Below are positions 1 to 7,188 of a DNA stretch of 7,188 nt, piece by piece. Each line of letters opens with the position of its first letter. Positions within the stretch are counted from its first letter, which is position 1. Source of the stretch: an uncultured Lachnospiraceae bacterium (lineage in GTDB: Bacteria; Bacillota_A; Clostridia; Lachnospirales; Lachnospiraceae). Both the position numbers and the translations under genes were made by a program. The stretch covers positions 1 to 7,188 of the forward strand of contig CADBME010000363.1 in assembly GCA_902795715.1 (NCBI GenBank), read 5' to 3'. Under the pieces are notes generated by a model. That model was not told where the DNA came from, searched no databases, and saw only the letters and a program-made list of their open reading frames with translations.

Positions 1-1076
1 AGGAGAACCAGATACTGACCTTTCCCGTAGCGGCAGACAGCATCACTGTGACGGACCGACTGGCATATGGAGTCTCTGAGCCTGGTAGACAGGCTGTCAA
101 GCTGGGGACCTGATTTCATGATATTTCCTTTGGAATCCACCACAGTACACAGCATCAGGAAAACAGATTGGCCGCCACGCTCCATCATACGGCGCACCAT
201 CTGGTAGACTCCCTGAAAAACAGGATAGGAACAAAGGAATCCTCTTCCCGGAGGCCGGTCGTATTCCTGCTCCAGCTGTTTTTGGATATCATCCAGCAAT
301 GCATACTGATGGTCCATCTGGGCACCCAGCTGGTTCAGAAGCTTAAGCATCTTCTGGGAAGGCCGGATACCTTCACTTCGGAAATAGAGATCAAGGGTGT
401 CATCATAAAACCTGGCTGCATCATTATATCTTCCTGTTGCCACCATGGCTTCCATAGTAACAACCTCCCAGTCAGCCAGGGGCTGAAGTTTTGCCGCATA
501 CCGGCCCAGGTTTTCCATCTCCAGGTAATCATAAGACTCCCGAAGAAGGTGAACCGCCGCCTCCACGCAATGGCAGAAGAGGTTCCTGTATCTTCTTGCT
601 TCCTGGGCTACCCAAAGCATACCGATCTGGTTGGCAAGAAACTCCCCCTTATAGAGATAGCAGGCCTTCAGATACAGTTCCTTTTTCCTGGCCGGATCGG
701 TTTCCGCATCCGCAAGTGCCGCTGTCTCTTCCATCATGGAAGCATCTTCTTCAACCTCAATTTCCGGTGTCCACCGAAGTATCCCCTTGTTCAGTCTCAT
801 ATAGTCCACATCCGGCAGAGGGGAAGCTTTCAGCTTTTTCTTTGCATTGTAGATGACACTTCGGGTTGCATGATGGACATCCTCCAGATCCCGGTCTCCA
901 AAAATGATTTCTTCCACATGATCCCGGCTGATTCCGTCTTTGGCGTGATGAAGGACGAGCTGCATCAGATATGTAAATTGTGATTCACTGGTTCTTCCTT
1001 CATTGGTGATGATCTTCCCCTGATAACGCATGGCAAAGGTTCCGAACATCTGAACCTGTAGTACTTCTTTGCTCAT
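1..1076 (-). CDS. BTAD-family transcriptional regulator with degenerate GGDEF-like C-terminus (partial, 3' end outside window)
   Basis: This reading frame is open from ATG at 1076 to the window edge, giving 358 complete codons and no stop. Residues about 6-103 look like the OmpR-type winged helix found at the N-terminus of SARP/BTAD regulators: a VQMFGTF opening, the helix-turn-helix stretch around GISRDHVEEIIFGD, and a wing near YMRLNKGILRW. Residues about 108-250 are helical and TPR-like, matching the bacterial transcriptional activator domain (YLYKGEFL, ATGRYNDAARFYDD). Residues about 280-358 resemble a diguanylate cyclase fold up to its signature, where RYGGDEF is replaced by RYGKGQY (349-355), so cyclase activity is unlikely. 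The start lies 4 bp after the pilT stop, so the gene is probably co-transcribed. Its likely role, inferred only, is control of this operon or of genes for the surface structure. No phosphoacceptor or membrane segment is visible in the part present. Confidence 0.87.
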   Translation of the reverse strand, partial: MSKEVLQVQMFGTFAMRYQGKIITNEGRTSESQFTYLMQLVLHHAKDGISRDHVEEIIFGDRDLEDVHHATRSVIYNAKKKLKASPLPDVDYMRLNKGILRWTPEIEVEEDASMMEETAALADAETDPARKKELYLKACYLYKGEFLANQIGMLWVAQEARRYRNLFCHCVEAAVHLLRESYDYLEMENLGRYAAKLQPLADWEVVTMEAMVATGRYNDAARFYDDTLDLYFRSEGIRPSQKMLKLLNQLGAQMDHQYALLDDIQKQLEQEYDRPPGRGFLCSYPVFQGVYQMVRRMMERGGQSVFLMLCTVVDSKGNIMKSGPQLDSLSTRLRDSICQSVRHSDAVCRYGKGQYLVL

Positions 1077-1080
1077 GTAT

Positions 1081-2136
1081 TTACCCCAGTCTTTTCACCA
1101 TATTTTCATAATGCGTGCAATGTAAGAGTGCTGTATCTTTGCTTATTCTTCCTTCCCGGTAAAGCTTGAGCAGGCTTCCGTCCGTCGTGCACATGCCGTC
1201 AGCCGCACCGGACTGCATAGTGGAATCCAGCTGATGGAGTTTGTCCTCCCGGATCATATTGGAAATAGCCACGGTGGACTTCATAATCTCAAATACAGGA
1301 ATCTGTCCTCCATTCACATCAGGAACCAGCTGCTGACAGACAACTCCCTTGAGAATCTGGGCAAGCTGTATCTTGACCTGCTGCTGCTGATTAGCAGGAA
1401 ATACATCAAGAATTCTGTTTATGGTATTGGCCGCACTGCTGGTATGCAGTGTGGAAAAGAGAAGAACTCCGGTCTCAGCTGCTGTAAGAGCTGCTGAAAT
1501 GGTGTCATAATCTCTCATCTCACCAAGGAGGATAACATCGGGGCTCTCCCGCAGGGCCGATCGAAGGGCTTCCAGGTAACCGGGAGTATCAATAGAGATT
1601 TCTCTCTGGGTTACAATAGATTTTTCATGGCGATGGATATACTCGATCGGATCTTCCATGGTAATAATGTGGCAATCCCGGCTTCGATTGATCCGGTCGA
1701 TCATACAGGCCAGGGTGGTGGACTTTCCGGTACCTGCTGCTCCGGTAATAAGAACCAGACCTTTTTTATTTTCAGCCAGGGAAAGTACACTCTCCGGTAT
1801 TCCCAGAGCTGACGGATCCGGCAGACCGAAATGAATCACACGGATTACTGCTGCCAGAGATCCACGCTGACGGAAAATATTGACCCGGAACCTGCCAAGG
1901 GAAAAGATAGAGAAGGAAAAGTCGTCATCCACTCCCTGATTTAAAAGGGTCTTCTCTCTCTTGGCCACCACATAGATTTCCTCTACAAGTTCCCGAATGG
2001 CATCCGGTTTCAGCATATCGCCCGGTAATCTCTCCTGATGTCCATTCACCTTCAGCACAACCGGAAGGCCGGCTATGATAAAGATATCCGCCGCATCCAT
2101 GGAAACGGCCTGTCTAAGGATTTCCTCAATTTTCAT
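1081..2136 (-). CDS. pilT: PilT-family type IV pilus / type II secretion ATPase
   Basis: The product is a 351-residue cytoplasmic hexameric ATPase of the PilT/GspE superfamily, near the usual PilT length. PilT proteins power pilus retraction. The N-terminal domain (about 1-100) carries DDFSFS and GRFRVNIFRQ. Walker A is GAAGTGKST (132-140), the Asp box is ITMEDPIEY (158-166), and Walker B with the catalytic Glu is DVILLGEMRD (200-209, E206). The His box keeps STLHT (H231), but the upstream AETGH is AETGV (V224). AISNMIRE (290-297) matches the PilT-specific AIRNLIRE element with Arg to Ser, which favours PilT over PilB/GspE. I chose ATG 2136 because AGGGAGG sits 6 nt upstream; the frame continues to a TTG at 2154 that would place this site inside the gene. 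The gene follows the four pilin-like genes after 89 bp and precedes the BTAD gene by 4 bp. No second assembly ATPase is in the window. Confidence 0.95.
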   Translation of the reverse strand: MKIEEILRQAVSMDAADIFIIAGLPVVLKVNGHQERLPGDMLKPDAIRELVEEIYVVAKREKTLLNQGVDDDFSFSIFSLGRFRVNIFRQRGSLAAVIRVIHFGLPDPSALGIPESVLSLAENKKGLVLITGAAGTGKSTTLACMIDRINRSRDCHIITMEDPIEYIHRHEKSIVTQREISIDTPGYLEALRSALRESPDVILLGEMRDYDTISAALTAAETGVLLFSTLHTSSAANTINRILDVFPANQQQQVKIQLAQILKGVVCQQLVPDVNGGQIPVFEIMKSTVAISNMIREDKLHQLDSTMQSGAADGMCTTDGSLLKLYREGRISKDTALLHCTHYENMVKRLG

Positions 2137-2225
2137 ATTCTTCCTCCCTGCCAACTCCTGGTTTCTATCGCTGTCATCCGATTTCTCTTACATTCAAATA
2201 ATATCCGACAGATAACCTGTTTGCC
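2137..2225 (-). other. 89-bp gap before pilT, the longest in the cluster
   Basis: Apart from the pilT ribosome binding site, I see no convincing -35/-10 pair, no strong hairpin and no T-run. A CTGTC/GACAG pair is present, but the stem is 5 bp with a loop of about 30 nt, too weak to call. The gap could hold a secondary promoter or an mRNA processing site that uncouples the ATPase level from the pilin-like genes, but nothing in the sequence proves it. Confidence 0.4.
2143..2149 (-). promoter_or_regulatory. Ribosome binding site that fixes the pilT start
   Basis: The minus strand reads AGGGAGG here, 6 nt before ATG at 2136. This strong Shine-Dalgarno match decides in favour of the MKIEEILRQ start rather than the in-frame TTG 18 bases further upstream. 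Confidence 0.8.
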
Positions 2226-2630
2226 TTACCATCCTAGTCCATCCCAGATGTTGACATCCTTATCTTCCTCCCAGGAGTGAACCATCTTCCAGGACAGGAT
2301 CTTCATCCCGCCCCCTTCATTCTTTACTCTCACGGTAAGGGAAGCATCCCCATCTTCGATAGTTTTCTCATAAACATTATACTCTTGTGTCCCAAAGGGG
2401 GCAAGAGCACTTGTATTCCCGCTTTTTATAGCTGCATCCAGGTCCCTCAGGAATTCCTGACCCTGTCTTTCCAGCCGGTAGCGGGTTTCCACTGTCTGAC
2501 CATAACGATCGGCCAGCCTTCTGTCCGCCTCGGCTGTGGTAAAGGTCAAAATAGCCAGCGTTGTCAGGCAGATACTGATGACTGTGAGCAGGAGGGCCAG
2601 GGGGCCCAGCTTGATGGGTACCTCTTTCAT
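2226..2630 (-). CDS. Small pilin-like membrane protein, type II secretion/pilus associated
   Basis: The product is a 134-residue protein with one N-terminal membrane helix (about 9-31), then a charged helix (ADRRLADRYGQTVETRYRLE, about 35-54) and a short, probably beta-rich C-terminal part with NVYEKTIEDG and ASLTVRVKN. This bitopic layout, a hydrophobic helix running into an amphipathic helix and a small globular head, is typical of pilins and pseudopilins. The usual prepilin site is absent: the only Gly before the helix (G9) is followed by Pro, which blocks prepilin peptidase cleavage. An Ala-x-Ala motif (A33-E34-A35) follows the helix and could be a signal peptidase I site, which is speculative. 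I chose ATG 2630 over ATG 2636 because AAGGAGG lies 7 nt before the former and only 1 nt before the latter. The start overlaps the preceding stop as ATGA, implying translational coupling. I cannot name a specific family. Confidence 0.75.
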   Translation of the reverse strand: MKEVPIKLGPLALLLTVISICLTTLAILTFTTAEADRRLADRYGQTVETRYRLERQGQEFLRDLDAAIKSGNTSALAPFGTQEYNVYEKTIEDGDASLTVRVKNEGGGMKILSWKMVHSWEEDKDVNIWDGLGW

Positions 2631-3100
2631 TTCCATCCCTCCTTACCATAGGAAGAGGTCGTCACCGTATAAATAACCTTCTTCCCTTTTTTGGCCTGTA
2701 TAGTTCCCTGGAGGAGGATTCTGTCCCCTCCGGCAGGATTTCCGCTTTCCGAAGGATCCGGTTCCCAGGCAATTTCTACCTTTAAGCTGCCTTTGGGATC
2801 CGGAGTCATATCAGCAGCATAGGCTGCTGTGATCCGTCCCTTTTTATCTCCCATCTCCTCTATGGATGCATTGTCTTTTTCATTCAGAAGGTCCAGTAAT
2901 TCTTTACTGTCCCCTGCCGCCGCGAATGCTTCCGCCGTATTCTGGCATAGGCAGATGGCGCTGGTTTTTTCTCTGGCCTCCACACTCTTTTTACGGGCCA
3001 TTCCGAAAATCCGGGTAAGAACCAGTATGATTCCGATAAAAACGACAATCAAAAGAAGGGTTTCAATATAAAATGCTGTATTATGTCCTTTTTGTTTCAT
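2627..3100 (-). CDS. Pilin-like (pseudopilin) membrane protein with degenerate prepilin-type N-terminus
   Basis: The product is a 157-residue protein: short basic N-terminus, membrane helix about 12-33, amphipathic helix (ARKKSVEAREK onward), an Ala-rich segment NTAEAFAAAGDSKELLDLL (54-72), then a strand-rich head (SLKVEIAW, RILLQGTI, KVIYTVTTSSY). The opening FYIETLLLIVVF (10-21) is reminiscent of the prepilin FTLIELLVVI signature, with Glu at position +4 rather than +5 from Phe and Ala instead of Gly before it. This supports a diverged minor pilin, but classical cleavage is doubtful. The start ATG 3100 overlaps the stop of the preceding DUF4860-like gene (ATGA), with a GGGGG-type ribosome site upstream, and its stop overlaps the next start in the same way. 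The head is acidic and proline-containing around 113-124 (EPDPSESGNP). Function is inferred from position and architecture only. Confidence 0.75.
   Translation of the reverse strand: MKQKGHNTAFYIETLLLIVVFIGIILVLTRIFGMARKKSVEAREKTSAICLCQNTAEAFAAAGDSKELLDLLNEKDNASIEEMGDKKGRITAAYAADMTPDPKGSLKVEIAWEPDPSESGNPAGGDRILLQGTIQAKKGKKVIYTVTTSSYGKEGWK
2638..2644 (-). promoter_or_regulatory. Ribosome binding site that fixes the start of the 134-residue pilin-like gene
   Basis: The minus strand reads AAGGAGG. Spacing to ATG 2630 is 7 nt and to ATG 2636 only 1 nt, so the second ATG is the real start. The site lies inside the last codons of the preceding gene, as expected for coupled genes. Confidence 0.8.
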
Positions 3101-3561
3101 GGTTGACCGCCCCCTTCACTTCGGAAATGCAGAAGGCATGCCCCCTCATCTGTTGTAACCTGATACAGGCCGTCTTTTTTCTCCTCGATACGAAAAACAG
3201 ATGTGTCCCCGATCAACTGGGCCTTTTTTAGATTCAGCTCCCTTTTCTCCGGACCATAGTATTCCCAGATAGCCTGGTCCCGACAGAAAATACGGAGGGC
3301 ATATCCGCCTTCATCACGGATCATAAGGATTTGACCCTGGTCCGTATCCTGGACAACCACAGCTGACTGTCTATCATTGGCAGCTGCCACGGCCGACAGG
3401 TAGGAAAGGGTTGATCTTGTTTCATTATTCCTGTTCTGACTCTCCACGGTATTTCTATAGGTTGAAGCTCCGAAGACCACCAGCAGAAGGAATCCGACCA
3501 GGAATAAAGCCGCTATACCGATTGTAAATACCCCAATAGAGGGTGCTTGTGAACGCTTCAT
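3097..3561 (-). CDS. DUF4860-like pilus/secretion-associated membrane protein
   Basis: The product has 154 residues: N-terminus MKRSQAPSIG, membrane helix about 11-32, then STYRNTVESQNRNNETRSTL followed by SYLSAVAAAND (33-63), and a strand-rich head to the end. The GVFTIGI-helix-YRNTVE...RSTLSYL pattern matches what I remember of DUF4860, a Clostridia family of unknown function found next to GspF genes; this is from memory, not a search. The head contains a single Cys pair candidate (C93, C142). G10-V-F-T-I-G resembles a prepilin site, but the Glu at +5 is Gly. ATG 3561 is supported by AGGAG 7 nt upstream. Fifty bases separate it from the preceding pilin-like gene, and it is coupled by ATGA to the next one. 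It is probably a minor pilin or accessory subunit of the same machine. Confidence 0.75.
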   Translation of the reverse strand: MKRSQAPSIGVFTIGIAALFLVGFLLLVVFGASTYRNTVESQNRNNETRSTLSYLSAVAAANDRQSAVVVQDTDQGQILMIRDEGGYALRIFCRDQAIWEYYGPEKRELNLKKAQLIGDTSVFRIEEKKDGLYQVTTDEGACLLHFRSEGGGQP

Positions 3562-3611
3562 TCTCTATCTCCTCTTACAAGAGTTTTCTCTCTTACTTCT
3601 TACTGGAATAC
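3562..3611 (-). other. 50-bp gap between two pilin-like genes
   Basis: The gap holds AGGAG for the DUF4860-like gene (about 7 nt before its start) and a small A/T-rich inverted repeat (AAGAG/CTCTT at 3579-3594, 6-nt loop). The stem is only 5 bp and has no following U-run, so it is not a credible terminator. GTAAG occurs three times within the gap, of unknown meaning. Confidence 0.4.
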
Positions 3612-3923
3612 CTATTTCTTCTTCACGGTGACCTGAACAGTCGGAGGCATGTTGGAAGCAAAGGCATTGTAGGTAATATAGTAATTCTTCCGGTTGACCT
3701 GAAGTCCGTAATTCTCTTCCAGGTACTTAAGATCCGGAGGATATACCCCTTCCACCACATAGCACTGTCTTGCGCTTCTCTCAACAGCGTAACGGATTGC
3801 CTGAGCACTTTCTTCCGTCAAGCCATCATCCGGAAGAAGAGCCGCTATGGCTGCAATCACCAGAAAAACAGCCAGAATCAGAAAGACTTTCAGTAATCCG
3901 GTAGATTCTTTATCGGAATACAT
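3612..3923 (-). CDS. Small GspG/pilin-like membrane protein
   Basis: The product is a 103-residue protein with a short N-terminus (MYSDKESTG), membrane helix about 10-30, and a small head. The segment after the helix, AIRYAVERSARQCYVVEGVYPPDLKYLEENYGL (residues 42-74, broken here only as a description of its order), has the GspG/type IV pilin rhythm: a helix with Ala and Arg, a Tyr, then GxYPPDL and a following Leu-rich turn. The head ends in strands (NYYITYNAF, TVQVTVKKK). G9 precedes the helix, but no Glu lies at +5, so it is not a standard prepilin. It starts 16 bp after pilC with AAGGAGG 6 nt before ATG 3923. This strong site and first position after the platform gene suggest it may be the most abundant subunit, which is inference. 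It contains one Cys (C54). Confidence 0.75.
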   Translation of the reverse strand: MYSDKESTGLLKVFLILAVFLVIAAIAALLPDDGLTEESAQAIRYAVERSARQCYVVEGVYPPDLKYLEENYGLQVNRKNYYITYNAFASNMPPTVQVTVKKK

Positions 3924-3939: not shown

Positions 3940-4980
3940 TTATCCTACGGAATTCATCATTCCGATCAGGGGCAGCATGACACTCAGAAGAGATAATCCG
4001 ACTGTGATCATCAGGATACCGGAAAGCAGCGGATCAACGATGCCGACCAGGCGGTCGACCAGATTGCTGCAGTTTTCCTCCAGAAGACCTGTCAGACGTC
4101 CTAAAACATTCTCCATATTGCCGCTTCGTTCACCAGCCAGAAGCATACGGCCGTAAACGGGCTCAAACAATTCTTCTTCATAAGCCGCCTGGGCGATGGA
4201 GTGTCCTTCCTCCATATAGGCCACGCAGCGCTGCAGTTTCTCCTCAACCGGTTTGCAGTCCGTCATGGCAATACTGTCAATGACTGCCACATCCTGCATT
4301 TCCCCGCTGGCCAGGAAAGTAGCCAGGGCAGAAGTAAAACGGAACATGCCCATGTTCTCAAGGATCTTATCGCAGATGGGAATCTTTCGAAGCAGACCTT
4401 CCACTAAGGGACGACGGTCTGTGTTCCAAAGCATATATCCCAGAAAGAGGGCCAGAGCCAGCAGGATCATCACGATCAAAGCTACCCAGCAAAATACTTT
4501 GGCCCAGGTTATGTAGGCATAGGACGAAGCCGTCAGAGATCCGGTCAGATTATTGTATACATCCGTAAAGGTGGGCAGTACCATAACAAGCATGACCACC
4601 AGGACAGCAATGATCAAAACAAGCATAGCCGCCGGGTAGGTGACGGCATTTTTCAGTTTCTCCGATATGGTTTTCTGGTCTGCATAGTAGCCGGACAGAC
4701 GGAAAAGAACATCCTCAAGCCGTCCGGAGGTCTCGCCTGCCTTGATCATCTGCAGGCAGTATTTGGGGAAGATCCCGGTGCTTTCCATTGCATCCGAAAG
4801 GCTGTTCCCCTCTTCTACCATTTTTTTCATTTGCTCCAGTCCGCCTTCCAGGATGCCACCTTCTTTGTGGCCTGAATAGAGAAGGCCGATGGCTTCATCC
4901 ATCTGTATTCCGGACTGCAGCATCATAGCCATACTCTCACAGAAGGCGCTGACGCCCAGATTGTCTAATGTCTTACTCAT
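3940..4980 (-). CDS. pilC: Type II secretion / type IV pilus platform protein, PilC/GspF family
   Basis: The product is a 346-residue inner-membrane platform protein that couples the cytoplasmic ATPase to pilin or pseudopilin movement. It has two T2SSF repeats. The first (about 10-140) contains LQSGIQMDEAIGLL, GNSLSDAM and the signature MIKAGETSGRLEDVL (78-92). The second (about 212-340) contains ALATFLASGEM, GHSIAQAA and the matching MLLAGERSGNMENVL (279-293). Membrane segments are at about 117-137, 161-184 and 314-341, the usual three-helix layout. It is somewhat shorter than typical PilC (about 400), mainly because of a short N-terminus. ATG 4980 has AGGAG 6 nt upstream. It follows the transglutaminase-like gene by 38 bp and leads directly into the pilin-like genes. 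The likely partner is the PilT ATPase of this operon; no PilB is in view. Confidence 0.93.
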   Translation of the reverse strand: MSKTLDNLGVSAFCESMAMMLQSGIQMDEAIGLLYSGHKEGGILEGGLEQMKKMVEEGNSLSDAMESTGIFPKYCLQMIKAGETSGRLEDVLFRLSGYYADQKTISEKLKNAVTYPAAMLVLIIAVLVVMLVMVLPTFTDVYNNLTGSLTASSYAYITWAKVFCWVALIVMILLALALFLGYMLWNTDRRPLVEGLLRKIPICDKILENMGMFRFTSALATFLASGEMQDVAVIDSIAMTDCKPVEEKLQRCVAYMEEGHSIAQAAYEEELFEPVYGRMLLAGERSGNMENVLGRLTGLLEENCSNLVDRLVGIVDPLLSGILMITVGLSLLSVMLPLIGMMNSVG

Positions 4981-5018: not shown

Positions 5019-5951
5019 TTAGTAATAATACACATCCGTATAATTGCTTCCGTCTCCCACAAAATCCGAGGGAGCTCCTCCCGAGGAAAATGTCAGATCA
5101 AGCCGGTTCCAGGAGTTGGAGTCTACTTCGTACTCCATGGCCACCCAGCCGGTTTCCTCCGTGTAGAACATATTCCAGGCATGGTATACGTCATCCGGAG
5201 ACACATATCCGAAAACCATCTTGACCGGAATCCCCTGGCTTCGCAGCATAGACGCTGCCAGTGCCGCATAATCAAAACAGATTCCCTTGCCGGTTTTCAG
5301 GGTTTCATCCGGGTCCGGCAGATAGCCTGCCTGGACTGTCTGTGCTTTTTCTTTATCGTATTTGACTTTGGCACAGACATAGTCGAAAACCTTCTGGACA
5401 AGATCCAGGGCATCTTCCGATTTCTCGGCAAGTTTCGCCGCTTTCTCTACGCACTTGGATTTCTCATTGTAATTCACATAATCACTGGGACGAATGAAAG
5501 GCTGAAACTCATCTTCCATCGTTACATCCACGTCCCCCTCATCCAGAATGCTGTATTTCGTTCCGTTTACATTTTCCAGTACACGGTAATAATAATATCC
5601 GTCACCGCAGGTAAGGGGATAGATAGATGGTGTTCCATCCGAAGCCAGATCATAGGTATATGTCATATCATCCATGATGATCTGGACCTTCAGCGTGTTC
5701 TCCGAAAGGGCAGACACACCGATATACCCCTCCTCCACCATTGTAGTGTCCACGACAACCTCCCCGTCACTTTCCGCCCTATCTTCATAAAAAGCGGAAT
5801 CTGCAAAGGCCGGAGCCTTATAGCCGCCTCCTTTGGCTGATTTAGCCGCTTCGGCAGCCTGCACGGGAAAGTGTCCGGAAAATACAAGGGCCAGCAATAG
5901 AAGGAGCACACCCGTCAGACGGATTCTTCCGCTTCTTCTTATTCTTTTCAT
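5019..5951 (-). CDS. Secreted transglutaminase-like (Transglut_core) protein
   Basis: The product has 310 residues. A signal peptide is clear: basic RRSGRIR, hydrophobic core about 13-26, and likely cleavage after QAA or AEA (about 33-35). An N-terminal beta-rich region (about 60-145) precedes the transglutaminase-like core (about 180-290). The catalytic triad is visible: C225 in GKGICFDYA, H257 in VYHAWN and D285 in WNRLDLT. The Q/G-rich loop and ASMLRSQGIPVKMVFGYV segment are typical of the family. Such enzymes form or cleave amide bonds, as cross-linkers or cysteine peptidases; which one cannot be decided here. The protein ends in a short Tyr-rich tail (DVYYY). It begins 3 bp after the signal peptidase stop, with AGAGG 7 nt before ATG 5951. 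Its place in the operon suggests maturation or cross-linking of the surface protein or pilin-like subunits (inference). Confidence 0.9.
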   Translation of the reverse strand: MKRIRRSGRIRLTGVLLLLLALVFSGHFPVQAAEAAKSAKGGGYKAPAFADSAFYEDRAESDGEVVVDTTMVEEGYIGVSALSENTLKVQIIMDDMTYTYDLASDGTPSIYPLTCGDGYYYYRVLENVNGTKYSILDEGDVDVTMEDEFQPFIRPSDYVNYNEKSKCVEKAAKLAEKSEDALDLVQKVFDYVCAKVKYDKEKAQTVQAGYLPDPDETLKTGKGICFDYAALAASMLRSQGIPVKMVFGYVSPDDVYHAWNMFYTEETGWVAMEYEVDSNSWNRLDLTFSSGGAPSDFVGDGSNYTDVYYY

Positions 5952-5954
5952 AGA

Positions 5955-6494
5955 TCAGCCTCTCATTTTTCCTGCTAAAAGGTTCAAAAGACATCCACAG
6001 GCAAGGTAAGCCATCAGGGCCAGTTTGCCTCCTCGTGTCGTGTTCATGGCCAGCCATCCTCCAAGATATGGAACATGACGTATGACCACTCCGATGTAAG
6101 CACTGTAGGGAACAGTCTCAAAGTCTTCTTGCTCGTTTGCATCGCCCATGGTTACAAATTCACCTGAAAAAGATTGGTTTTTCATGGCTCGATGGACAAT
6201 AGGTGTGTCGGAGCCATGCCTTTGGAAGGCAATGACATCATTTTCCATTACTTCGGATGGATCGATAGGATCAACGATGACGATCGAACCGATGGGAATT
6301 GCCGGAGCCATACTCCCTGTTTCAATATTAAATATCTGGTAGCCCAGCATTTTGGGGATCACCGCAGGAAGTAAAGTCAGAATGACACCTATAATTATCA
6401 AGGTCCCTGCTATATTACAAAGAGCGGGAAGAATCTTCCCGCCCCATGTAGATCTCTTTTTGCCGGACAGTCTGGATCTCTTACTCATGTTCAC
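5955..6494 (-). CDS. sipW: SipW/ER-type signal peptidase I
   Basis: The product has up to 179 residues and is a membrane-bound signal peptidase that removes signal peptides outside the membrane. It is of the SipW/archaeal/ER type: the Ser nucleophile is in ETGSMAPAI (S61), and the usual bacterial Lys is replaced by His in TPIVHRA (H101). The conserved acid is in TMGDANEQED (D118, with D124 nearby). Membrane helices lie at about 27-47 and 156-174, the second after the catalytic domain, as in SipW. Two starts are possible: GTG 6494 (used for the numbering) and ATG 6488 two codons later. AGGTG lies only about 3 nt before the ATG and AAGAG about 3 nt before the GTG, so neither is decisive. In Bacillus, SipW matures TasA fibre subunits. 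Here the candidate substrates are the upstream surface protein or the pilin-like proteins, which is inference. Confidence 0.92.
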   Translation of the reverse strand: MNMSKRSRLSGKKRSTWGGKILPALCNIAGTLIIIGVILTLLPAVIPKMLGYQIFNIETGSMAPAIPIGSIVIVDPIDPSEVMENDVIAFQRHGSDTPIVHRAMKNQSFSGEFVTMGDANEQEDFETVPYSAYIGVVIRHVPYLGGWLAMNTTRGGKLALMAYLACGCLLNLLAGKMRG

Positions 6495-6537: not shown

Positions 6538-7188
6538 TCAGCTTTTTGTACCCGGTTTTTTACCGGCTGCACTTCCGGGTTTACCTGTTCCCGGTCCTGC
6601 GGGCTTCCTGGGCCCCGGACCTGCCGGTTTCCTGGGAGCACTGCCTGCGGGTTTTCCGGTCGGTTTGCTTCCCGGTGCGCCCGGCTTTCCGGATGGCTTT
6701 CCACCCGGCCCTCCAGGACCGCCCGGTTTCTTTCCGGATGTTCTCTTGCCGCCTGAATTGGCAAGCTTCCAGATACCAAAACCGGCTCCGCCTAAGGCCA
6801 GAAGAGCAAGCAGGATAAGCAAGGCTTTCAGAATCGGATTCATTCCCTTATTGCGGTTCATCTCGTCTTCTGTATCATCAATCTCGGGATTACCAAAGTC
6901 ATCCTCTGTCGTGGCTTCCTCAATGTCATCCCCACTGGGGTAGTCAGCCTGAGGAATCTCATTGTTCCCGATATCGATCAGATCATCCGGTTCATTATTA
7001 TTGTTCCCTGCACCAGCATTATCATCTTCGTCTTCATCACCTGCTGCTGCGGCATTGGTTCCGGTACCTGTTCCGGTTCCGGTCCCGGTATTGGTGTTGG
7101 TATTCGTATTGTTAGTATTGTTGTTATTGTTGTTGTTATTATTGTTGTTATTGTTCTCTTCTACAACCTCTTCCTCAACAACTTCTTC
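6538..7188 (-). CDS. C-terminal part of a larger surface-type protein with low-complexity linker, membrane helix and Gly/Pro/Lys tail (5' end outside window)
   Basis: The frame is open from the window edge to TGA at 6538, giving 216 residues of a larger protein. In order: Glu/Val stretch EEVVEEEVVEE (1-11), 13 Asn (12-24), Thr/Asn alternation (25-34), five Gly-Thr pairs (35-44), an acidic linker rich in Asp, Glu and Asn (about 50-109), a basic MNRNKGMNPILK flank, a membrane helix (about 120-142) and a tail of about 70 residues made almost only of Gly, Pro, Lys, Ala, Ser, Arg and Thr with no acidic residue. Opposite charge on the two sides suggests the acidic part is outside and the basic tail inside, or that the tail binds the acidic wall. 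The Met at 6861 has no ribosome binding site, and the frame runs on through it, so a separate 107-residue gene is unlikely. No LPxTG is seen. Function is unknown; a wall-spanning stalk is plausible. Confidence 0.8.
   Translation of the reverse strand, partial: EEVVEEEVVEENNNNNNNNNNNNNTNNTNTNTNTGTGTGTGTGTNAAAAGDEDEDDNAGAGNNNNEPDDLIDIGNNEIPQADYPSGDDIEEATTEDDFGNPEIDDTEDEMNRNKGMNPILKALLILLALLALGGAGFGIWKLANSGGKRTSGKKPGGPGGPGGKPSGKPGAPGSKPTGKPAGSAPRKPAGPGPRKPAGPGTGKPGSAAGKKPGTKS
6541..6753 (-). repeat. Gly/Pro/Lys-rich basic tail with short internal repeats
   Basis: This stretch encodes the 71-residue tail after the membrane helix. It holds GGPGGPGG near its start and a duplicated PRKPAGPG unit, with GKP recurring several times. 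There are 16 Lys or Arg and no Asp or Glu. Gly is not at every third position throughout, so it is not a regular collagen-like triple-helix repeat. Confidence 0.75.
7057..7116 (-). repeat. Asn-Thr then (Gly-Thr)x5 dipeptide repeat
   Basis: Codons for Thr/Asn alternation (7087-7116) pass into five GGN-ACN pairs (7057-7086), giving Gly-Thr five times. The hexanucleotide unit is about GGAACC with synonymous variation, so it is an old or selected protein repeat rather than a fresh expansion. Confidence 0.85.
7117..7155 (-). repeat. AAC/AAT triplet repeat coding for 13 consecutive Asn
   Basis: Thirteen codons, all AAC or AAT, form an imperfect microsatellite on the minus strand. It lies in frame in the surface-protein linker and continues into ten codons of mostly Asn/Thr alternation. 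Changes in copy number would keep the frame and alter linker length only. Confidence 0.9.

Follow-up and report, generated by a model that had tools for sequence, protein, structure and literature searches.

What kind of machine is made by four small pilin-like proteins that appear to have no canonical leader to lose? This question is raised by a 7,188-nucleotide stretch of DNA from an uncultured Lachnospiraceae bacterium (GenBank assembly GCA_902795715.1, contig CADBME010000363.1), hereafter the window. On its minus strand lie, in this order, genes for an Asn-rich membrane protein, a SipW-like signal peptidase, an exported transglutaminase-like protein (TG), a PilC-type platform protein, four small proteins (p103, DUF4860, p157 and p136), a PilT-type ATPase and a BTAD-domain protein. 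A preliminary description had reported the four adjacent small genes between PilC and PilT and the lack of a prepilin peptidase in the window. Both observations were confirmed: all four open reading frames (ORFs) are on the minus strand with unchanged positions, and no A24 prepilin peptidase match was found among the ten window ORFs scanned. According to PMC10790768 (the papers cited here are represented by excerpts), the minimal core of a type IV filament (T4F) machine consists of pilins, prepilin peptidase, extension ATPase and platform. From their sequences, the seven genes TG-PilC-p103-DUF4860-p157-p136-PilT look like a conserved machine resembling type IV pilus (T4P) assembly, with mostly gut-dwelling Firmicutes as hosts, and its parts are homologous to T4F parts. 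We give an even chance to the explanation that it is a reduced relative of T4F machines with uncleaved leaders, a membrane-held complex worked by PilC and PilT. That it constitutes a new type of T4F machine, widespread in gut Firmicutes, lacking prepilin peptidase and extension ATPase, driven by PilT alone and keeping its leaders attached, is proposed tentatively, with somewhat less than even confidence.

The operon is conserved in many genomes. The window DUF4860 was matched by 123 database proteins, and a profile scan of genome contigs with alignment A1 (the window DUF4860 and 37 homologues) gave 62 loci (set 1). By record titles, these are mostly gut or rumen metagenome-assembled genomes (MAGs) of Lachnospiraceae, Oscillospiraceae, Erysipelotrichaceae and unplaced Clostridia. 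p103 and p157 are each present in 61 of the 62 loci, p136 in 60, PilT and PilC in 59 each and TG in 55; several of the gaps coincide with contig ends. Furthermore, DUF4860 was matched in 49 of 200 sampled genomes from the family of genome G010. Leaving aside G010, G032 and G038, which belong to set 1, and the weak matches in G094, G165 and G175, 43 genomes remained (set 2). Among 18 of the DUF4860 places in this sample, 17, all from set 2 genomes, have a more distant version of PilC-p103-DUF4860-p157-p136 (the second subfamily), and the 18th (L107) is an ordinary type IVa pilus (T4aP) locus. In 25 of the 26 remaining set 2 genomes, a PF00437 match shares its contig with DUF4860 and is no more than about 2 kb away, as judged by eye. 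In L104 and L111, TG of the second subfamily occupies another place, and L110 and L112 yielded no TG. Profile searches at E 0.001 returned 2265 clusters resembling p103 and 1038 resembling p136, the latter among the candidates scored. The DUF4860 and p103 counts show that the operon is common.

The canonical leader motif has been lost across both subfamilies. The pattern [GAS]-X4-Glu, with Glu at position +5 (Glu5), was found in 1 of 248 set 1 N-termini (p103 0/62, DUF4860 0/63, p157 1/62, p136 0/61). Database homologues among the matches listed gave 0/120 for p103, 0/120 for p136 and 1/120 for DUF4860, and p157 of the second subfamily gave 4/17, three with Ser at -1. As a positive control, T4aP and Com loci of the same genomes yielded pilins of the KGFTLAELLIVV and KGFTLLEM types; the pattern used for this control was slightly wider than the canonical test and also picked up spurious ORFs, and the pilins were recognized by eye.

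Each of the four proteins deviates in its own way. For p103, the preliminary description had listed G9 without Glu at +5. The lack of the canonical pattern was upheld, but G9 is not a conserved residue, and 2 of 61 orthologues have G or A there; what is conserved at the N-terminus is MYSDKKK, followed by a variable hydrophobic helix. The Gly that had been read in place of Glu in DUF4860 is no peculiarity of the window, as +5 is never Glu in 62 orthologues, and Glu was also absent from residues 14 and 15 in these 62. G10 is Gly in 46 of 63 rows; among the matches listed, 114 of 120 database homologues have it too. The Gly-Pro of p136 (136 residues from the first ATG, 134 from the conserved start M3) likewise recurs: 60 of 61 sequences keep the Gly, and the Pro after it is kept in 61 of 61. 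For p157, a Glu one place early and no Gly had been described. Glu13 is invariant (62/62) and stands at +4 if the protein is cut after A9, but at the regular +5 if it is cut after T8. The surrounding residues are well kept in set 1 (T8 in 59 of 62, A/S/G9 in 57, F10 in 61, Y11 in 60). In the second subfamily Glu is present in 17/17. Five residues ahead of it, six of these proteins have Pro, four have Ser, and Asn, Arg, Val, Asp, Thr, Glu and Gly occur once each (Gly 1/17). Since the Glu is kept and the position five earlier is variable, the Gly/Ala of a class III leader is not kept in that register.

The pilin nature of the subunits was addressed by structure prediction and profile searches. 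The predicted model of p103 has a type IV pilin fold, with a long N-terminal helix and a sheet-bearing head, and a break at residues 30-32 between membrane helix and head helix. The model of DUF4860 also has a type IV pilin fold and its structural matches are GspJ/EpsJ/XcpW. Thus, the pilin-like architecture suggested for the whole set was recovered in p103 and DUF4860, the two proteins modelled; Foldseek alone was weak, with best E-values of 0.038 and 0.31. The DUF4860-like identity was clear in the profile searches (PF16152, 47.8 bits against a gathering cut-off of 25), and p103, p157 and p136 matched no Pfam or NCBIfam family above cut-off. Pfam scans of alignment members of these three gave scattered weak matches, among them Pilin_N in 3/62 and T4SS_pilin in 5/62 p103 members, which are suggestive only. 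Profiles of all four proteins had no meaningful match to PDB chain sequences. Gln-Cys-Tyr in the p103 head helix is invariant (62/62 rows) and is a possible crosslink or modification site; that TG uses this Gln as a substrate is a guess. One p103 homologue (L101 6643-8346, in G138) has an additional C-terminal part of about 450 residues.

The motor of the operon is of PilT ancestry. The ATPase scored 405.5 bits with TIGR01420 (cut-off 319.1), which places it in the PilT family, and 124.9 bits with the ComGA model NF041000, where the cut-off of 300 was not reached. In a quick tree, which carried a long-branch warning, the operon motors fall together with the T4aP PilT proteins of these bacteria, apart from PilB and ComGA. 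The motif AiqNMIRE is conserved in the 59-row PilT alignment, and the AISNMIRED of the operon ATPase is the AIRNLIRE-like motif of the PilT/PilU family. The operon encodes no second ATPase, and an extension ATPase of the PilB/GspE/ComGA type is absent from it.

Besides the leaders, the distribution of A24 peptidases among the hosts was examined. An A24 match was found in 33 of the 62 set 1 genomes (14/23 and 19/39, one of the 19 below cut-off) and in 18 of 43 set 2 genomes, leaving 29 and 25 negatives. Hence, the missing peptidase of the window has its counterpart in 29/62 and 25/43 host genomes, but the remaining hosts do contain one. Re-searching the 29 set 1 negatives at E 10 gave sub-threshold matches in 15 (best E 0.008) and none over cut-off, and the archaeal-type peptidase PF06847 was found in 0/29 of them. 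Controls for set 1 cover 50 genomes, the 29 negatives and 21 of the 33 positives. LspA was detected in 26/29 negatives and 20/21 positives, and in 24/25 negatives of set 2; RecA (set 1) was detected in 28/29 and 18/21, respectively. N_methyl prepilins were present in 4/29 negative and 12/21 positive set 1 genomes. A second T4P-type ATPase was scored by hand and required a further PF00437 match reaching at least about 40 bits; the A24-negative G016, G019, G029, G032 and G146 have matches of 25-29 bits, which were left uncounted although they are over or near the Pfam cut-off. By this measure it was present in 4/29 negatives versus 20/21 positives of set 1 (Fisher p 5e-9) and in 2/25 versus 18/18 of set 2 (p 3e-10), p values which treat genomes as independent, as related genomes are not. 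Conversely, any other T4P-type ATPase of this strength was absent from 25/29 and 23/25 A24-negative genomes (48/54). A24 peptidase and PilB are therefore undetectable in many host genomes. The exceptions in set 2 are G140 and G244, which carry another ATPase. Excluding five set 1 negatives that are poorly assembled or bear signs of other systems (G006, G050, G054, G060 and G062) leaves 24 negatives. On a PilC plus PilT tree of 54 rows, the A24 label needs 11 changes versus about 18 in shuffles, and one five-member clade is entirely negative. MAG incompleteness as the sole cause of the negatives was judged unlikely, based on the LspA/RecA controls, the clustering by clade and the second set. 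Leader residue frequencies are alike in A24-positive and A24-negative genomes of set 1. In none of the 21 positive genomes did an A24 match lie on the contig of the operon PilT, as judged by eye.

These data bear on the idea that the subunits are cut by an A24 peptidase borrowed from another T4P, Com or Tad system, and that the negatives reflect assembly gaps or recent losses. The positive genomes of both sets (33/62, one below cut-off, and 18/43) argue for such borrowing. The same holds for G006, G050, G060 and G062, which are A24-negative and hold canonical N_methyl prepilins, so that the A24 gene is probably missing from these assemblies. Moreover, MSH loci are reported to be without a peptidase of their own in genomes that possess one (Denise 2019, PMC6668835). 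Against borrowing stand the 54 A24-negative genomes in which control genes are nearly all present and of which 48 lack another T4P-type ATPase, the clustering of negatives by clade, leader residues that are the same regardless of A24, and the lack of a conserved Gly in p103, a residue called absolutely critical for prepilin processing (PMC4471445). We consider borrowing quite unlikely.

Several observations nevertheless leave room for leaders that are cleaved. A class III leader is defined as ending in Gly/Ala, with Glu5 optional (PMC10191384). A loose pattern was applied, consisting of Gly/Ala, a next residue other than Pro and then 18 mostly hydrophobic residues, with no Glu required. It was found in 23/62 p103, 27/63 DUF4860, 49/62 p157 and 1/61 p136 sequences of set 1, and in 11/17, 14/17, 2/17 and 14/17, respectively, of the second subfamily; the sites are scattered in position, and control pilins scored 10/10. 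Lack of Glu5 does not prevent cleavage in known pilins such as ComGG (PMC10790768), so a Gly-bearing DUF4860 could be a substrate where A24 exists. The relatives L001, L011 and L017 have an A24 match, so that cleavage may occur in the window's own strain. Finally, G138 (4.31 Mb) and G220, each nearly whole in one contig, are both A24-positive, so that the absence of A24 is not proven by any closed genome. Such candidate sites in some proteins are also what one would expect if an unrecognized leader peptidase, either a highly divergent aspartic peptidase or a membrane protease of another kind, processed the subunits into ordinary thin filaments. The retained pilin folds, the retained PilC and PilT and the Gly at the leader end of most DUF4860 and p136 members are consistent with this. 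However, the operon has no fixed peptidase gene, the 29 set 1 negatives had neither A24 over cut-off at E 10 nor PF06847, the residue preceding the hydrophobic stretch is unconserved in p103 and in p157 of the second subfamily, and the p136 Gly is followed by Pro in 61/61. Processing of this kind appears unlikely to us.

Two proteins encoded in the window were considered as processing enzymes and rejected. An S26 homologue of the SipW-like signal peptidase occurs in 7/62 loci (phmmer), and the homologue cluster joined with it consists partly of sortases; the SipW-like peptidase is not a conserved part of the system. The active site of S26 signal peptidases is outside the membrane and pilin leaders are inside, hence S26 was rejected as a fixed leader-processing part. 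TG would likewise be on the wrong side of the membrane, being exported by a signal peptide or lipobox-like pattern.

The unusual T4F machine of the preliminary description, with pilins uncleaved or cut otherwise, is partly supported, by the pilin folds (two modelled), the motif loss and the many hosts without A24; that the leaders stay uncut in cells is what we infer from these. In our favoured model, p103 would be the main pilin-headed subunit. DUF4860 (GspJ-like), p157 (with the invariant Glu) and p136 (Glu-less, with a GspK/ComGG-like N-terminus) would assemble on the PilC platform as a complex of minor pilins. Pilin-headed, GspJ-like, Glu-bearing and Glu-less subunits are together the kind of set that forms T4F tip complexes, which are capped by a subunit without Glu5 (PMC10790768). 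The PilT-type ATPase would serve as motor and TG, exported and often lipid-anchored, as outer partner. TG has a conserved Cys-His-Asp triad (assigned by eye in the alignment), and a lipobox-like pattern is found in 33/55 rows, the window TG not being one of them. The leaders would not be removed; their short, positively charged N-termini would remain on the cytoplasmic side and anchor the subunits permanently. Given leaders that are not cut and the lack of an extension motor, we consider a membrane-held stub likelier than a long filament. The complex would thus probably be a stub or short pseudopilus, turned or pulled by PilC and PilT, instead of a long filament made by membrane extraction. 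With the help of TG, it would likely display, move or crosslink a surface protein. Glu5 normally pairs with the free N-terminus produced by cleavage. As Glu5 of p157 is kept and the leaders would remain attached, the pairing partner must then differ, for example Lys/Arg of the uncut leader. If true, leader cleavage and membrane extraction are dispensable for some uses of T4F machinery, and the role of Glu5 is separable from that of the processed N-terminus.

Alternatively, the four proteins might be pilin-derived heads serving a static membrane complex, be it a sensor, an adhesin or an export gate, which PilT only remodels and which makes no filament. The absence of an extension ATPase, the variable membrane helix of p103 with the break at residues 30-32 of the model, and GGDEF/EAL-like and phosphotransfer-like genes adjoining some loci (by eye) fit such a complex. 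It is at odds with the strongly conserved membrane helices of DUF4860, p157 and p136 in set 1, as packing in a pilus core would predict, and with the p157 Glu kept in 62/62 and 17/17 sequences. We regard a static complex as very unlikely.

The model of a membrane-held complex with attached leaders was compared with known systems. The operon should not be classed as an ordinary type IV pilus, because it has no extension ATPase, no canonical leader motif and no constant A24 peptidase. The Com pilus (ComGA-ComGG and ComC; a type IVd pilus, T4dP) also has one ATPase, a PilC-type platform, a run of small pilin genes and Gram-positive hosts, and its minor-pilin set has one member without Glu5 (PMC10790768). 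In contrast to the operon proteins, ComG pilins have class III signal peptides cut by ComC (same source); the operon has no canonical motif, many hosts without A24, an ATPase like PilT and not like ComGA, and TG in addition. The T4aP of Clostridia in the same genomes (PilB, PilT, PilC, PilA) has homologous PilT and PilC, but its loci have PilB and GFTLAELLIV pilins, and the operon has neither. With the pseudopilus of type II secretion (GspG-GspK) the operon shares the match of the DUF4860 model to GspJ/EpsJ/XcpW, but it has no secretin, GspE or canonical leaders. The N-terminus of GspK is Glu-less, like that of p136. Archaeal T4P loci are linked to transglutaminase-family surface peptidases (arCOG02164, arCOG09555, arCOG03450; PMC4858521), as the operon is to TG, but A24-type peptidases are described for them in the same paper. 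Pilus-type genes for which a prepilin peptidase was not found are reported from Nanoarchaeota (PMC4471445) and Nanohaloarchaeota clusters (PMC9563170); these hosts are archaea, and the excerpts mention the finding briefly, with no description of cleavage motif loss. Peptidase-free T4P-like sets have thus been mentioned for nanosized archaea, and the open-licence PMC literature searched gave none for Firmicutes. In this library, the only one searched (T4P/T4F, Lachnospiraceae, Oscillospiraceae, Firmicutes, PilT, peptidase loss), no paper mentions DUF4860 and none among those listed describes the operon. The Pfam entry DUF4860 (PF16152), of which the window protein is a member, gives no function; the pilin fold and the operon are added here.

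Features of the 7,188-nucleotide window that belong to or adjoin the operon
Feature	Position	Strand	Details
TG, exported transglutaminase-like protein	5019..5951	-	PF01841, 84.7 bits
PilC/GspF-like platform protein	3940..4980	-	PF00482 140 bits; GspF 174 bits, under its equivalog cut-off
p103, pilin-headed protein	3612..3923	-	MYSDK-type N-terminus; no Pfam/NCBIfam family
p103 membrane helix	3837..3902	-	residues 8-29; sequence variable; conserved Gly-1/Glu5 absent
p103 head	3615..3833	-	residues 31-103; type IV pilin fold; invariant Gln53-Cys54-Tyr55
DUF4860 protein	3097..3561	-	PF16152; GspJ-like minor pseudopilin fold
DUF4860 Gly10-Gly15 stretch	3517..3534	-	Gly occupies the Glu5 place
p157, pilin-like protein	2627..3100	-	invariant Glu where the membrane helix begins
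p157 motif T8-A9-F10-Y11-I12-E13	3062..3079	-	Glu retained; position five earlier not Gly
p136, pilin-like protein without Glu5	2226..2636	-	likely start 2630 (134 residues)
p136 Gly-Pro	2601..2606	-	Pro directly follows the Gly of the would-be cleavage site; invariant in set 1
PilT-type ATPase	1081..2154	-	conserved start probably 2136; Walker motifs; motif AISNMIRED
BTAD-domain protein, probable regulator	3..1076	-	truncated by the window edge
SipW-like signal peptidase I	5955..6494	-	S26, TIGR02228; 3 bp upstream of TG

The surroundings of the operon vary between loci. In the window, an ORF at 6538-7188, open at the window edge and next to the SipW-like peptidase, encodes Asn runs, acidic residues, a Gly-Pro-Lys-rich tail and one hydrophobic stretch. 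In L045 (1-7590), the operon adjoins a class C sortase, a SpaA-type pilin, weak matches to SipW-dependent matrix proteins, SipW and a second sortase, and a similar gene cluster lies upstream of TG in L007, L016, L023 and L056. These clusters suggest a wider surface-fibre locus in several relatives. A BTAD homologue is present in 39/62 set 1 loci. A family of about 164 residues (F9) occurs in 24/62, mostly adjoining BTAD, with the motif RVQHRQNSSWQGRITW (e.g. L001 4116-4604 and L011 4163-4654); the one member scanned had no Pfam/NCBIfam match. GGDEF/EAL-like, receiver-like and phosphotransfer-like genes were seen by eye near the operon in a number of loci, among them L044 (5053-8495), L062 (10938-14378) and L028, and these neighbours hint at control by cyclic di-GMP. 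In L113 (G233), TG, PilC and the four pilin genes are together, and a recognized PilT is not beside them. G222 has two DUF4860 matches, on contigs C69 and C73; the C69 place, the one examined, carries the operon.

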